From Streptomyces sp. NBC_01717 (GTDB lineage Bacteria; Actinomycetota; Actinomycetes; Streptomycetales; Streptomycetaceae), in assembly GCF_036248255.1 (NCBI RefSeq), contig NZ_CP109178.1, positions 6,970,001 through 7,034,000 on the forward strand: a stretch of 64,000 nucleotides of DNA, in the 5' to 3' direction. Shown here piece by piece: positions 32,857 through 38,153 of the stretch. The notes under the pieces were generated by a model. It saw only the letters and a list, made by a program, of their open reading frames with translations, made no database searches and was not told the origin of the DNA. The position numbers and the translations under genes are program-made. Position 1 is the stretch's first letter; each line of letters opens with the position of its first letter.

Positions 32857-32991
32857 AGGGCGGCGGTAGCGACTCTGTGAAGGTTCACAGGAAGGATGTC
32901 GCTCGAAGACGCCTGCAGTTCAACTGGTGTTGGTGCGGGGGCGGGAGCGTGAGCCCGCAAACACCCGTCCCAGCAGCTCCAGGAGTTCGTG

Positions 32992-34461
32992 ATGCCCTTC
33001 ACGCGCAGGGAATTCACCAAGCAGTCCGCCCTCACCGGCGCGGGCATCGCCCTGACCGGTACCGTCGCCGCACTGGCCACCGCGCCTGGTGCCCTCGCCG
33101 CGCAGGAGTCCGGTCACGACCACGACGACCACCACGGTCATGACCACGGACACGGTCACAGCCACGAGCCCGGCTACGGTCCGCTGGTCTCCGACCCGAA
33201 GGGCATACTCGCGCTGCCCGCCGGATTCTCGTACCGCATCGTCACCCACAGCGGTGTCACCAAGCTGGAATCCGGCGAGTACACCCCCTCCAACCACGAC
33301 GGCACAGCCGCCTTCGAGGGCCCGCGCGGCGTCACCCTGCTCGTCAACAACCACGAACTGAGCGGCACCCGGGCCGGCTGGGAGCACCCCGTCCCGCTCA
33401 CCGAGGGCCTCGTCTACGACCCGATCGCCGCCGGTGGCTGCACCGTCGTGGAGACCCGCCGCGACGGCCGCACCGCCGAGTGGGTCGGCATCGCCGGCAC
33501 GTCCACCAACTGTGCCGGTGGCGCCACCCCGTGGGGCACCTGGCTCACCTGCGAGGAGACCGAGGACAAGGCCGGCAAGAACGGTCTGCTCAAGGACCAC
33601 GGCTACGTTTTCGAGGTCGACCCGTACGACGAGCGCGCCAACCGCGACCCGCGCCCGATCAAGGCGTTCGGCCGGTACGCCCACGAAGCTGTCGTCATCG
33701 ACCCCAAGCTCGGCCACGCCTTCCTGACCGAGGACGCGGCCGGCCCCAACGGGCTGCTCTACCGCTGGGTTCCGCCGCACGGCTTCAAGCACGGCCGCGG
33801 CAAGCTGCGCACGCTCGCGGACGACGCCGGTGTCCTCCAGGCCACCAAGTGCTTCGACAAGAGCGGCAAGTTCGTCGACGACCTGTCCCGCGCCACGAAG
33901 ATCGGCACGGTGTACGGCGTGGACTGGGTGGACGTCGTCGACCGCGACGCCAAGACCGTCTCCGTGCGCAAGCAGTTCGGTGACCAGGACGTCACCCGCG
34001 CCCGCAAGCTCGAAGGCATGTGGTGGGGTGACGGCGGCGTCTACATCGTCTCCTCGTTCGCCCGCGAGGAGAGCCCCGTCCAGCACGACGGCCAGGTCTG
34101 GTTCTACGACCCGAAGCGCCGCACGCTGACGCTGAAGGTGCTTCTCGGCGTGAACGCGGACCCGTCGAAGGACGGCGCCTTCGACGGCCCGGACAACATC
34201 ACCGTCTCGCCGTACGGCGGTCTGGTCATCGCCGAGGACGGCGAGGGCGTCCAGCACCTCTTCGGGGCGACGGAGAGCGGCCGCACGTACCCGATCGCGC
34301 GCAACGACCTCAACGCGGGCACGGCCGAGGAGCCGGAGTACAGCGAGTTCACCGGCGTCACCTTCTCGCCCGACGGGAAGACGCTGTTCGCCAACATCCA
34401 GACGCCGGGCATCATGCTCGCCATCACCGGCCCGTGGAAGCGCCAGCCGAACCGGCACTGA
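32992..34461 (+). CDS. PhoX-type (DUF839) secreted alkaline phosphatase-like protein
   Basis: 489 residues. The N-terminus carries a Tat signal (TRREFTKQSALTGAGIALTG, cut near AQA-like GALAAQ). Right after the cleavage region is a metal-binding-like stretch, GHDHDDHHGHDHGHGHSHE. The DUF839/PhoX beta-propeller follows: PAGFSYRIVTHSG, GVTLLVNNHELSG, WGTWLTCEETED, FGRYAHEAVVID, TEDAAGPNGLLYRW, FDGPDNITVSPYGGLVIAEDG. PhoX enzymes are calcium/iron phosphomonoesterases exported folded. AGGAG lies six bases before the ATG at 32992. Confidence 0.85.
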   Translation: MPFTRREFTKQSALTGAGIALTGTVAALATAPGALAAQESGHDHDDHHGHDHGHGHSHEPGYGPLVSDPKGILALPAGFSYRIVTHSGVTKLESGEYTPSNHDGTAAFEGPRGVTLLVNNHELSGTRAGWEHPVPLTEGLVYDPIAAGGCTVVETRRDGRTAEWVGIAGTSTNCAGGATPWGTWLTCEETEDKAGKNGLLKDHGYVFEVDPYDERANRDPRPIKAFGRYAHEAVVIDPKLGHAFLTEDAAGPNGLLYRWVPPHGFKHGRGKLRTLADDAGVLQATKCFDKSGKFVDDLSRATKIGTVYGVDWVDVVDRDAKTVSVRKQFGDQDVTRARKLEGMWWGDGGVYIVSSFAREESPVQHDGQVWFYDPKRRTLTLKVLLGVNADPSKDGAFDGPDNITVSPYGGLVIAEDGEGVQHLFGATESGRTYPIARNDLNAGTAEEPEYSEFTGVTFSPDGKTLFANIQTPGIMLAITGPWKRQPNRH

Positions 34462-34502: not shown

Positions 34503-34527
34503 AGGCCGGTCTTCTAAGGTCCTGTCT

Positions 34528-34668
34528 GTGCCCAGGTGCGCAGGCAGGACCTACTTCCACTCTCAATGGGGATGTCGCGGGTTCGAGTCCCGTCATCGGC
34601 TTTCGAGCCGGTGTAGCTCAGGGGGTAGAGCACCTTCGTCGGTTCCGCCGACTGTGATCTCTGGGCAC
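34528..34668 (+). ncRNA. Y-RNA-like ncRNA 1 with tRNA-like module
   Basis: P1 stem: GTGCCCAG (34528-34535) pairs perfectly with CTGGGCAC (34661-34668). Next comes the conserved loop GUGCGCA opposite GACUGUGAUCU. Stem P2 is 34543-34550 with 34642-34649 (GGCAGGAC/GUUCCGCC, one A-C mismatch). Inside is a permuted tRNA: T-arm stem 34577-34581/34589-34593 with loop UUCGAGU; a 7-bp acceptor stem 34594-34600/34607-34613 closed by UUUCGA; UA; D-stem GCUC/GAGC 34616-34619/34628-34631 with loop AGGGGGUA. The variable loop is 5 bases. The outer architecture matches Ro-bound Y RNAs and bacterial YrlA. It sits directly upstream of rsr. Confidence 0.85.
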
Positions 34669-34693
34669 GTACAGCTTCAAGAAATTGCACGCA

Positions 34694-34764
34694 CCTCCCG
34701 GTGCGCAGGCTACGGCTACTTCTTCGAAACAAGTTCCGCCGTCGCCGACCTTGATCTCGGGAGG
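34694..34764 (+). ncRNA. Y-RNA-like ncRNA 2, minimal form without the tRNA-like module
   Basis: P1: CCTCCCG (34694-34700) pairs with CGGGAGG (34758-34764). The conserved loop is GUGCGCA/GACCUUGAUCU. P2: GGCUACGGC (34708-34716) pairs with GCCGUCGCC (34738-34746), one U-C mismatch. An apical ACUU/AAGU stem (34718-34721/34731-34734) closes the molecule at 71 bases. It keeps the Ro-binding-type trunk but has no T- or D-arm sequences. P1 has an unrelated sequence to P1 of copies 1 and 3, yet pairs perfectly. Confidence 0.8.
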
Positions 34765-34774
34765 CACAGCATCG

Positions 34775-34907
34775 GGTGCCCGGTGCGCAGGTGACGGATA
34801 CTTCTCGGATCTGACGGTTGCGGGTTCAAGTCCCGCCCGGCCACGGCCGGTAGCTCAATGGGCAGAGCATCAGGCAAGCCCGTCGCCGACTCCTGATCTC
34901 GGGCACC
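34775..34907 (+). ncRNA. Y-RNA-like ncRNA 3 with tRNA-like module
   Basis: P1: GGTGCCCG (34775-34782) pairs with CGGGCACC (34900-34907). The conserved loop is GUGCGCA/GACUCCUGAUCU. P2: GGUGACGG (34790-34797) pairs with CCGUCGCC (34880-34887). The tRNA-like part has a 5-bp anticodon-type stem 34810-34814/34870-34874, a 5-base variable loop, T-arm GCGGG-UUCAAGU-CCCGC (34820-34836), an acceptor stem CCGGC/GCCGG closed by CACG (34837-34850), UA, and D-arm GCUC-AAUGGGCA-GAGC (34853-34868). The Y-RNA trunk takes the place of the anticodon loop. Confidence 0.85.
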
Positions 34908-34920
34908 CATGCGCTGTGTC

Positions 34921-34943
34921 TTCCCCCAATGAATTCGGGGGAA
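34921..34943 (+). promoter_or_regulatory. Hairpin sequestering the rsr ribosome-binding site
   Basis: TTCCCCC (34921-34927) can pair with GGGGGAA (34937-34943) around a nine-base loop. The right arm is the only Shine-Dalgarno-like sequence for the rsr ATG at 34950. The hairpin could hide it, or act as a partial terminator between the Y RNAs and rsr. Confidence 0.55.
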
Positions 34944-34949
34944 TTCACC

Positions 34950-36530
34950 ATGGCACGCTTCAACGTCCGTACCACCAAGGCGAATACGGCTTCGCCCGTG
35001 AAATCGACCGGGCGCACCGCGCCCACCCGTCAGGGCGGTCGCGGATATCTCCGGGAAAACCGTTCCGAACTCTTTCTGCTTGCCGTGGCCAATTTCGTCT
35101 CGCAGCAGACCTTTTACGAGAATGCCGAGCAGCGCGACAGCCGATTCGCCACGCTGGTACGCATCCTTGCGGTGGGCGACCCCGACTGGACCGCCGGACT
35201 GCTGGGATGGCTGCGCCGCGACGGCGGGATGCGGACCGCGGCGATCGTCGGCGCCGCCGAGTACGTGAAGGCCCGGCTCGACGCGGGGGCCGAGGACGGG
35301 CCGTCCAACCGGCAGGTCGTCGACTCCGTCCTGCTGCGCGCCGACGAGCCCGGCGAGCTGCTGGGGTACTGGACCTCGCAGTACGGCCGTACCGTGCCCA
35401 AGCCCGTCAAGCGCGGGATCGCCGACGCCGTACGCCGCCTCTACAACGGCAAGTCGCTGCTGAAGTACGACACCGCGTCCAAGGGCTACCGCTTCGGCGA
35501 CATCCTGAACCTGGTGCATGCCGCGCCCGACCCGGAGAGGTCCTGGCAGGGCGAGCTGTTCCGCTATGCCCTCGACCGCCGGCATCACCCGGACGCGGCG
35601 GTTCCGCCCGCCTCGAACCGCACCCTCTCCGCCCACCGGGCGCTGATGGAGCTGCCGGTCGAGGAGCGGCGGGCCGTGATCACCGCGCCCGACGGGGCGG
35701 ACCGGCTGGCCGCGGCGGGCATGACCTGGGAGGCCCTCGCGGGCTGGCTGCAGGGACCGATGGACGCGGCGGCATGGGAGGCGGTCATTCCGTCGATGAG
35801 GGCGATGGCACTCGTCCGCAATCTGCGGAACTTCGACGAGGCGGGTGTCTCGGACGAGGTCGCCGCGCAGGTGGCGGCGAAGATCTCCGACCCGGGCGTG
35901 GTCGCTGCATCGCGGCAGTTCCCGTTCCGCTACCTCGCGGCGTACCGGCACGCTCCGTCGCTGCGCTGGGCGTACCCGCTGGAGCAGGCGCTCGGCCACT
36001 CCCTCGCGAACGTTCCGGCGCTGCGGGGGCGGACGCTGATCCTGGTCGACCGCTCGGGCTCGATGTGGTCGCCGCTCTCGGACCGGTCGCAGCTGAACCG
36101 GGCCGACGCCGCCGCGATCTTCGGTGCGGCGCTCGCGCTGCGGGCCACCGATGCCGATCTGGTGGAATTCGGTACGAACAGCGCACCGGTGACCTTTCGC
36201 AGGGGCGAGTCCGTGCTGAAGATCCTGGACCGGTTCGGTGATCTCGGTGGCACCAACACCGCGGAGGCGGTCCGCCGGCACTACCGCGGCCATGACCGGG
36301 TACTGATCGTCACGGACGAGCAGGCGTCGTTCACGTATCGCGGTGATGCCACCGAGGCCGTCCCGGCGAGTGTGCCCGTGTACACCTGGAATCTGGCCGG
36401 ATACCGGGTCGGGCACGCCCCGTCCGGAAGCGAGAACCGCCACACCTTCGGGGGTCTTTCGGACGCCGCATTCCGCATGGTGCCCCTGGTGGAGGCGGGG
36501 CGGGACGCCGACTGGCCCTGGAAACGCTGA
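34950..36530 (+). CDS. rsr: Ro60/Rsr homologue, TROVE-domain RNA-binding protein
   Basis: 526 residues. A basic N-terminus (ARFNVRTTKANTASPVKSTGRTAPTRQGGRGYLRE) leads into the helical-repeat TROVE ring (NFVSQQTFYENAEQRDSRFATLVR, then WTAGLLGWLRRDGGMRTAAIVGAAEYVKAR). A von Willebrand A-like domain follows, with the metal-site motif DRSGSMW at residue 367. Ro60 proteins bind Y RNAs on the outer ring surface and misfolded RNA in the channel; in Deinococcus, Rsr with Y RNA tethers PNPase. ATG 34950 is chosen over ATG 34929, which lies inside the hairpin loop. Three Y-RNA-like elements lie immediately upstream. Confidence 0.93.
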   Translation: MARFNVRTTKANTASPVKSTGRTAPTRQGGRGYLRENRSELFLLAVANFVSQQTFYENAEQRDSRFATLVRILAVGDPDWTAGLLGWLRRDGGMRTAAIVGAAEYVKARLDAGAEDGPSNRQVVDSVLLRADEPGELLGYWTSQYGRTVPKPVKRGIADAVRRLYNGKSLLKYDTASKGYRFGDILNLVHAAPDPERSWQGELFRYALDRRHHPDAAVPPASNRTLSAHRALMELPVEERRAVITAPDGADRLAAAGMTWEALAGWLQGPMDAAAWEAVIPSMRAMALVRNLRNFDEAGVSDEVAAQVAAKISDPGVVAASRQFPFRYLAAYRHAPSLRWAYPLEQALGHSLANVPALRGRTLILVDRSGSMWSPLSDRSQLNRADAAAIFGAALALRATDADLVEFGTNSAPVTFRRGESVLKILDRFGDLGGTNTAEAVRRHYRGHDRVLIVTDEQASFTYRGDATEAVPASVPVYTWNLAGYRVGHAPSGSENRHTFGGLSDAAFRMVPLVEAGRDADWPWKR

Positions 36531-36959: not shown

Positions 36960-38153
36960 CTACAGCGCCTGTGCGGCGGGCTTGACCATGCCGCGGACCG
37001 TGCGCGACTTGACGAAGTCACCCATCGCCGTCATCTCCCACTCGCCGGAGAACTGCTTGATCAGCTTCGCCATCATCACGCCGGTCTGCGGTTCGGCGCC
37101 GGTCAGGTCGAAGCGGACCAGCTCCTCGCCGGACGTCGCGTCGATCAGCCGGCAGTAGGCCTTGGCGACCTCGGTGAACTTCTGGCCGGTGAACGAGTTG
37201 ACCGTGAAGACCAGCCCCGTCGCCTCCGGGGGGATCCGGCCCAAGTCCACGACGATCACCTCGTCGTCTCCCGCGCCCTCGCCCGTGAGGTTGTCGCCGG
37301 AGTGCTTGATCGCACCGTTCAGGATGGAGAGCTTGCCGAAGTAGCAGCTGTCCAGATGGTTCCGGTTGGGGCCGTAGGCGATCACCGAGGCGTCGAGGTC
37401 GATGTCCTTGCCACGGAACGCGGGTTCCCAGCCCAGCCCCATCTTGACCTGCGAGAGCAGCGGACGGCCGCCCTTGACCAGGGACACCGTCTGGTTCTTC
37501 TGGAGGTTGACCCGGCCCTTGTCGAGGTTGATCTTGCCGGAGCCGGCGGGCGCCGGAGCGGCGGCGGGCGGGGCCGCGGGAGCGGCGGTCCGCGGGTCCA
37601 CGGGGGCGGCGGCAGGCATCGGGGGTGCGACCGGGGCGGGCGGTGCGGCGGGCTCCTCGACCGAGACGCCGAAGTCCGTGGCGATGCCCGCCAGCCCGTT
37701 GGCGTACCCCTGGCCGACCGCTCGGGCCTTCCAGGCGCCGTTGCGCAGATAGACCTCGATGACCACGAGCGCCGTCTCGGCACCGAGACTGGGCGGGGTG
37801 AAGGTGGCGAGCACACTGCCGTCGTCCGCGTTGCGCACGGTGGCGGTGGGCTCGATGCCCTGGAATGTCTGCCCCGCCGCGTCCGGGCTCGCCGTGACGA
37901 CGATCTTCTCGATGCCGGGCGGCACCGCGGCGGTGTCCACCACGATCGCGTCCGGCGCCGTGCCGCCGCCGGAGCGGTAGGTCACGCCCGGGCCGGTGGG
38001 CTGGTTGTAGAAGATGAAGTCGTCGTCGGAACGCACCTTGCCGTCGGAGGTGAGCAGCAGGCCCGAGACGTCGAGCCGCACCGGGGCGGCGACGTCCACC
38101 GCCACGCGGGCGGTGGAGAGAGGGATGTTCGAGCCGGGGGTCATAGCGGTCAT
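36960..38153 (-). CDS. Double TerD-domain stress protein
   Basis: 397 residues with two TerD domains: residues 1-165 (GSNIPLSTARVAVDV, DFIFYNQPTGPGVTYRSGGG) and 215-397 ([61 protein letters not shown]). They are joined by a 45-residue Pro/Ala linker. The acidic DLDAS and [13 protein letters not shown] loops of the second domain are the calcium-binding sites of TerD proteins. The first domain lacks the exact loops and looks degenerate. The family is linked to tellurite resistance and general stress, often with phosphoribosyl-type biosynthesis genes that are absent here. Confidence 0.88.
   Translation of the reverse strand: MTAMTPGSNIPLSTARVAVDVAAPVRLDVSGLLLTSDGKVRSDDDFIFYNQPTGPGVTYRSGGGTAPDAIVVDTAAVPPGIEKIVVTASPDAAGQTFQGIEPTATVRNADDGSVLATFTPPSLGAETALVVIEVYLRNGAWKARAVGQGYANGLAGIATDFGVSVEEPAAPPAPVAPPMPAAAPVDPRTAAPAAPPAAAPAPAGSGKINLDKGRVNLQKNQTVSLVKGGRPLLSQVKMGLGWEPAFRGKDIDLDASVIAYGPNRNHLDSCYFGKLSILNGAIKHSGDNLTGEGAGDDEVIVVDLGRIPPEATGLVFTVNSFTGQKFTEVAKAYCRLIDATSGEELVRFDLTGAEPQTGVMMAKLIKQFSGEWEMTAMGDFVKSRTVRGMVKPAAQAL

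Follow-up and report, generated by a model that had tools for sequence, protein, structure and literature searches.

Y RNAs encoded near rsr, the gene for the bacterial Ro60/TROVE protein Rsr, were reportedly found by Chen in 2014 in more than 250 species, each having one or more tRNA-like Y RNAs. The published passages on YrlA describe its head as a tRNA mimic that is modified by tRNA enzymes and that amounts to a circular permutation of a tRNA. In the corresponding passages on Deinococcus, a Y RNA tethers Rsr to PNPase and gates Rsr. Here we present three tandem units that precede rsr in Streptomyces sp. NBC_01717, in a window of 64,000 nucleotides, which is the whole stretch of DNA that was analysed. 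The locus is of a known kind, that of Y RNAs near rsr with tRNA-like heads. The tRNA heads of units 1 and 3, which the original prediction had missed, are its more interesting feature.

The three units are probably Y RNA genes in front of rsr, each comprising a basal stem and a conserved internal loop that is the presumed Rsr site. Unit 1 (also A; 34528..34668) carries what appears to be a full, circularly permuted tRNA head; unit 2 (B; 34694..34764) is a minimal Y RNA without a tRNA head; and unit 3 (C; 34774..34908) is a YrlA-type Y RNA with a tRNA head open in the anticodon loop, all on the + strand. A pattern scan found them at 34528-34668, 34694-34764 and 34775-34907, as had been predicted from the window, and the predicted sequence and pairing also held: GTGCGCAGG and TGATCT are common to all three units, the outer arms pair in each, and so do the inner helices, though not perfectly. 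In unit 1, the outer stem is formed by 34528..34535 and 34661-34668, and UGAUCU, the conserved 3′ strand of the presumed Ro site, lies at 34655..34660 (+). The inner helices of unit 1 (34543..34551 with 34641-34649; GGCAGGACC/GGUUCCGCC) and unit 2 (GGCUACGGC/GCCGUCGCC) are each paired at 8 of 9 positions, and that of unit 3 (GGUGACGG/CCGUCGCC) has 8 pairs, one of which is U-G. Taken as single sequences, units 1, 2 and 3 fold mildly better than shuffles (z −2.2, −2.1 and −1.8); the reverse strands of units 1 and 3 fold equally well (z −2.7 and −2.6). A bulged C in the Ro stem is a feature of bacterial Y RNA in the published passages; the unpaired column 136 that RNAalifold leaves in the outer stem of unit 1 is U, not C (alignment A1, comprising all 55 unit 1 copies described below).

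The gene after the array was predicted to encode a TROVE protein, and this is confirmed by a Pfam TROVE match of 43.8 bits and by matches to solved TROVE proteins (E 8e-28). It encodes 526 amino acids (34950..36527, stop codon to 36530, +) and was found in one copy in the 10.2 Mb genome. A TerD-domain gene lies downstream of rsr (36963-38153, −) and a PhoX-type phosphatase gene upstream of the array (32989-34461). Some Streptomyces have a second, diverged rsr (56-71% identity) with its own Y RNAs (six loci).

We compared the window with the best 80 of 276 rsr relatives, all 80 from Streptomyces. Using patterns that tolerate mismatches, and for which a miss is no proof of absence, we detected unit 1 in 55 of the 81 loci (leaving 26 in which it was undetected), unit 2 in 79 and unit 3 in 73. 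All three units are present in 47 loci, units 2 and 3 in 26, units 1 and 2 in 6, and unit 1 alone in 2; because 47 of 81 loci match all three patterns, the three-unit array is not unique to this strain. These homologous loci indicate that the shared architecture did not arise by chance. They uphold the prediction of tandem Y RNA genes 5′ of a TROVE gene, in long and minimal forms and with covarying stems, and they contain the compensatory changes whose absence had been named in advance as its refutation. In unit 1, 14 of 37 pairs change on both sides, compared with 5.8 in shuffles (0 of 500 reach this value; alignment A1), and one pair of the inner helix switches from GC (46 copies) to AU (8 copies). 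The fold as a whole is 96.0% paired and contains 50 double-change cells, against at most 5 in any slid version.

Unit 2 is the most constant of the three. An alignment of 46 of its 79 copies (A2; thinned by hand, with six minimal copies of 31-32 nt excluded) has changes on both sides in 5 of 16 pairs, compared with 2.5 in shuffles (3 of 500 reach this value); by one measure, the number of pair types, it does no better than shuffles (9 versus 10.7). The compensatory changes sit in the inner helix, and the basal stem is nearly invariant. In the six loci with minimal copies, unit 2 has shrunk to a hairpin of 31-32 nt, a trait with 4 changes on the rsr tree. The outer stem and the GUGCG...GA(U/A)CU loop are retained, suggesting that there is value in preserving the basal stem by itself. 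In the outer stem of unit 2 (34694-34700, 34758-34764), 5 of 7 pairs never vary, though pairing would permit change, and its sequence, CCUCCC/GGGAGG, looks like an anti-SD/SD sequence.

The head of unit 1 appears to be a four-arm tRNA, circularly permuted and open between positions 26 and 27, that is, between the D arm and the anticodon arm. On the + strand, the anticodon arm UUCCA-CUCUCAA-UGGGG (34555..34571, loop 34560-34566) is followed by the variable loop AUGUC, which includes C48 (34572..34576), the T arm (34577..34593), the acceptor stem closed as a hairpin (34594..34613; 3′ strand first, with a 6-nt loop at 34601-34606), U8 and A9 (34614-34615) and the D arm (34616..34631). The 3′ half therefore comes before the 5′ half, as in circularly permuted tRNA genes. 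A 5-bp stem with a 7-nt loop is present at the 5′ part of the head in 53 of 55 copies, its strands being UUCCA/UGGGG or a compensated version (UUCGA/UCGGG in 8, UUCCG/CGGGG in 2). The variable loop is 5 nt long in 52 of 55 copies, a T arm with UUCRA is found in all 55, and U8-A9 with a D arm of standard kind in 54. Since our parser requires U54, U55, C56, R57 and A58 in the T loop and A14, GG and A21 in the D loop, only U8 and positions 15, 48, 53 and 61 are free observations; U8 and G15 occur in every one of the 54 D regions that could be parsed, and C48, G53 and C61 in all 55 copies.

RNAalifold recovers the four arms of unit 1 unaided. Once rotated to tRNA order, the heads are called as tRNA by ARAGORN in 54 of 55 copies and in 0 of 550 shuffles; in native order, the corresponding numbers are 1 of 55 for unit 1 and 0 of 73 for unit 3. 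The tRNA-Glu(ctc) that ARAGORN reports at 34524-34601 was rejected as a miscall; it covers the 5′ half of unit 1, and the tRNA finder here took a Y RNA gene for a tRNA, a pitfall for annotation. We also hand-picked 30 diverse relatives of unit 1, some of them stand-alone copies or from other genera. In this set both sides change in 26 of 37 pairs, and covariation is 0.518 versus 0.177. Because the rows of alignment A4 were chosen for having an anticodon arm, its score for the anticodon helix is biased.

By calculated energy, unit 1 would instead form a rod (−59.6 versus −47.4 kcal/mol for the cloverleaf). The anticodon arm is formed at minimum energy in 0 of 53 unit 1 heads (mean pair probability 0.06) versus 53 of 67 real tRNAs taken from two of these genomes. 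The rod as a whole exceeds shuffles (covariation 0.302 versus 0.148 in the diverse set), but most of its support comes from the two helices, outer and inner, that both folds have in common. The helices of the rod head are paired at 81.6 and 81.5% in 54 distinct copies and at 70.7 and 77.7% in the diverse set; the cloverleaf anticodon helix is 100% paired, including in the diverse set, whose rows were chosen for it. The rod also fails where the cloverleaf covaries: its pair 41-93 is lost in the 8 rows in which pair 31-41 flips from CG to GC. We therefore rejected the rod and, giving evolutionary evidence preference over folding energy, consider that unit 1 would adopt the cloverleaf.

The loop of the anticodon arm is conserved around the anticodon, with C32 in 53, U33 in 54, U36 in 51, A37 in 48 and A38 in 54 of 55 copies. 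We mapped unit 1 onto an rsr DNA tree of 80 loci (one locus was excluded; two copies with loops of other length were kept on the tree and excluded from a separate set of loop counts and from the folding comparison). It has undergone 368 changes over 138 columns, 70 of which are unchanged. Position 34 is the fastest column (19 changes) and position 35 is tied third (16 changes), followed in the loop by 37 (7), 36 (2) and 32 (1); positions 33 and 38 have zero changes. By these counts, unit 1 has an anticodon loop with its frame held and its anticodon free or driven. Read in rotated order, the anticodon switches among Met (16), Ile (13), Lys (11), Asn (6), Ser (3), Arg (2), Glu (1, the window), Asp (1) and Trp (1) in related species. 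A working tRNA would therefore miscode, and it is highly improbable that unit 1 is a permuted tRNA gene processed to a working tRNA, even though its rotated form is a canonical tRNA and circularly permuted tRNA genes are, in the published passages, a described class (PMC3978253).

The same pattern of change bears on a second alternative, in which unit 1 would show a whole tRNA to anticodon nucleases or to loop-modifying enzymes, its anticodon drifting or being driven by conflict. The rapid turnover of positions 34 and 35, next to positions 33 and 38 that do not change, would suit such a bait or sensor, but it may mean only that these positions are free. A t6A element, C32-N-N-N-U36-A37-A38, given in passages of a study of human mitochondrial enzymes (PMC7102964), fits 46 of 55 unit 1 loops, which counts in favour of this alternative. 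As a strict rule it was rejected, and t6A cannot be the whole reason, because U36 is missing from the window's own loop, CUCUCAA, and from the CUGUCAA loop of some stand-alone copies, so that neither fits. The passages of Hughes et al. 2020 raise the possibility that YrlA inhibits an anticodon nuclease by competition, but also state that Salmonella YrlA itself is uncut by the nuclease. With unit 1 also undetected in 26 of 81 loci, we regard the bait or sensor as doubtful. A displayed anticodon that differs between species is a testable sign of drift or conflict.

Unit 3, as judged from its sequence, is a tRNA opened in the anticodon loop, like the published YrlA. Its anticodon stem (3′ strand 34810..34814, 5′ strand 34870-34874, +) encloses the T arm, the acceptor hairpin and the D arm (34820..34868, +). 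Among 73 copies, the T arm could be parsed in 69, 47 of which have a standard D loop. In these 47 copies, the anticodon stem is paired in 221 of 235 cells (shuffled mean 166, maximum 183), and the tertiary pair 15-48, which we take to be the Levitt pair, is A-U in 34 and G-C in 13, without exception. This argues for an L shape of the unit 3 head, with only 5 changes of the pair on the tree. In a test of its independence, 3 independent pairs had support and each pointed the expected way, but this number is too small for significance. The head itself switches among standard, Leu-like and fMet-like types, the type of D arm changing 13 times on the rsr tree. A D arm like that of tRNA-Leu is found in 16 of 69 heads, and one like that of fMet in three. 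In 15 of the 16 Leu-like heads, 20-28 nt precede the T arm (versus 13-17 nt in 49 standard heads), and in 13 of the 16 a variable-arm hairpin of 4-7 pairs adjoins the T stem.

To place unit 1 in a wider context, we compared by eye the lists of rsr and of matches to a unit 1 model (R1) in 121 Streptomyces genomes. Of the 69 genomes that have rsr, 60 contain a match at E ≤ 1e-13; of the 52 that lack rsr, none does. Nine genomes with rsr have no match at this threshold; one of these has a weaker match beside rsr (5.5e-12), and two others (G006 and G067) have partial rsr matches only. R1 matches over model positions 27-104 near E 1e-12 were taken as tandem tRNAs and left uncounted, an assignment read directly in the window's genome alone; tallies at E 0.001 (387/392 and 348/396) were set aside because tandem tRNAs and controls also match. 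In 13 of the 60 genomes there is a match away from any rsr, one of them uncertain owing to a fragmented assembly. Among 20 loci hand-picked from the R1 matches and fetched, 11 have no rsr within the 7 kb. Of these 11 stand-alone loci, only one pair (L244 and L246) has a common long flank, with a few weaker ORF similarities besides. Ten of the 11 have a TAnnnT element no more than 16 nt before the stem, and 10 have, at most 70 nt downstream, a perfect hairpin whose 11-15 pairs may include G-U; only long hairpins carry weight here, because hairpins of at least 7 pairs arise in 67% of shuffles. The stand-alone copies thus look like independent small-RNA genes acting in trans with Rsr.

Outside the genus, 22 genomes had rsr, and in each of the 15 rsr loci examined, from other genera of Actinomycetes, the unit 1 model finds between 1 and 4 matches; tandem arrays are therefore not special to Streptomyces. 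Six of these 15 loci were flagged for a 5-bp anticodon arm with a 7-nt CUNNNAA loop; all six belong to one family (f89), which contributed 9 loci, and the 6 loci from other families gave none. When 396 genomes were drawn evenly from the phylum, the unit 1 model scored at most 49.9 bits outside the genus, and the four-arm form is thus sparse outside Streptomyces.

The switching heads of unit 3 and the stand-alone copies of unit 1 could be accommodated in a broader form of the sensor hypothesis, in which the Ro60 ribonucleoprotein would present a whole tRNA with its anticodon arm as a decoy or sensor for enzymes that cleave or modify anticodons, the anticodon would be under conflict, heads would be re-modelled time and again on different tRNAs, and stand-alone copies would extend the repertoire in trans. 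We consider this possible, with the odds well against it, and prefer a role of the array as a set of adaptors for Rsr, which is set out below.

Transcription probably begins at the 5′ end of unit 1. A −10-like element, TAAGGT (34515..34520, +), lies 7 nt upstream of unit 1, and TAnnnT precedes the stem in 55 of 55 copies at 5-7 nt, exactly 7 nt in 53, which would place the primary 5′ end at the stem. A sigma-70 scan with strict settings found nothing, and on the coding strand no promoter or terminator was seen between units. Unit 2 follows unit 1 after 25 nt and unit 3 follows unit 2 after 9 nt; because these spacers leave little room for promoters, we infer that the transcript is processed, and one transcript would be cut into stable RNAs.

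A single promoter-like element for the array, together with the gap of about 42 nt between the end of unit 3 and the rsr start codon, would also suit a cis-acting leader, in which Rsr binds its own mRNA leader and controls rsr translation, no free RNAs being made. In the window, a hairpin could cover the rsr ribosome site; such a hairpin can form in 77 of 81 loci, but also in 51% of shuffles, and it was dropped as too weak. The ribosome site itself (34930-34950) lies within GAATTCGGGGGAATTC, which is identical in 58 of 81 loci. A leader would need no tRNA tertiary residues, and the stand-alone copies lie far from rsr and have a promoter-like element and a hairpin of their own. We therefore judge the cis-acting leader to be an unlikely explanation, somewhat more so than the decoy or sensor.

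Our preferred reading, to which we assign a probability of roughly 0.6, is that the Y RNAs are held by Rsr and act as adaptors, with their tRNA heads docking partners that bind tRNA. Rsr would hold each RNA by its basal stem. The tRNA heads would dock partners on the Rsr ring, either PNPase, as in the Deinococcus Rsr/Y RNA/PNPase complex (RYPER), or else tRNA-modifying or tRNA-cleaving enzymes. The headless unit 2 would occupy or gate Rsr and recruit no partner. Three Y RNAs could in this way provide three states of Rsr: headless, with a tRNA-like body only, and with a whole tRNA. Such a series at one locus (no head, a head without the anticodon arm, a head with it) makes it possible to ask which part of the tRNA matters, and for which partner.

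How does the array compare with these known systems? The Rfam YrlA model (RF02553) matches unit 3 over the whole model (50.5 bits) and unit 1 in part (34.8 bits), against a cut-off of 69, and gives no match above the cut-off in the window or in the 8 homologous loci tried; Streptomyces Y RNAs are therefore probably under-annotated. The 34.8-bit score of unit 1 proves little alone, because the YrlA model also matches 7 of 14 control genomes; a 38.4-bit YrlA match at 6315622 of the window's genome (G000) proved to be two tandem tRNA-Asn genes. In the titles, opening parts of abstracts and passages searched, we found no paper that deals with Y RNAs of Streptomyces or describes an anticodon arm in any Y RNA.

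Like YrlA (RF02553; Salmonella YrlA, PDB 6CU1), units 1 and 3, but not unit 2, combine linkage to rsr and a basal stem with permuted T, acceptor-hairpin and D arms. According to the published passages, the YrlA head has D, T and acceptor arms and no anticodon arm. Unit 3 resembles it in this respect, whereas unit 1 has a closed anticodon arm and opens at 26/27, and unit 2 differs from YrlA in having no head. Leu-type unit 3 heads depart from YrlA by their long variable arm, and one such head (L060) gives no YrlA match at E 0.1. By its name in the published passages, the Salmonella rsr-yrlBA-rtcBA operon combines rsr with two Y RNA genes, and its order is unlike that of Streptomyces, in which A, B and C lie upstream of rsr. 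RYPER, as described in passages of the literature, likewise joins Rsr to a Y RNA with an adaptor head; here, three unlike Y RNAs come from one locus. Circularly permuted tRNA genes differ from unit 1, which is embedded in a Y stem, opened at 26/27 and variable in its anticodon. Set against the published passages, the four-arm head opened at 26/27, the class-II, tRNA-Leu-like head and the stand-alone copies are apparently new, though the 2014 survey may hold parts of them.
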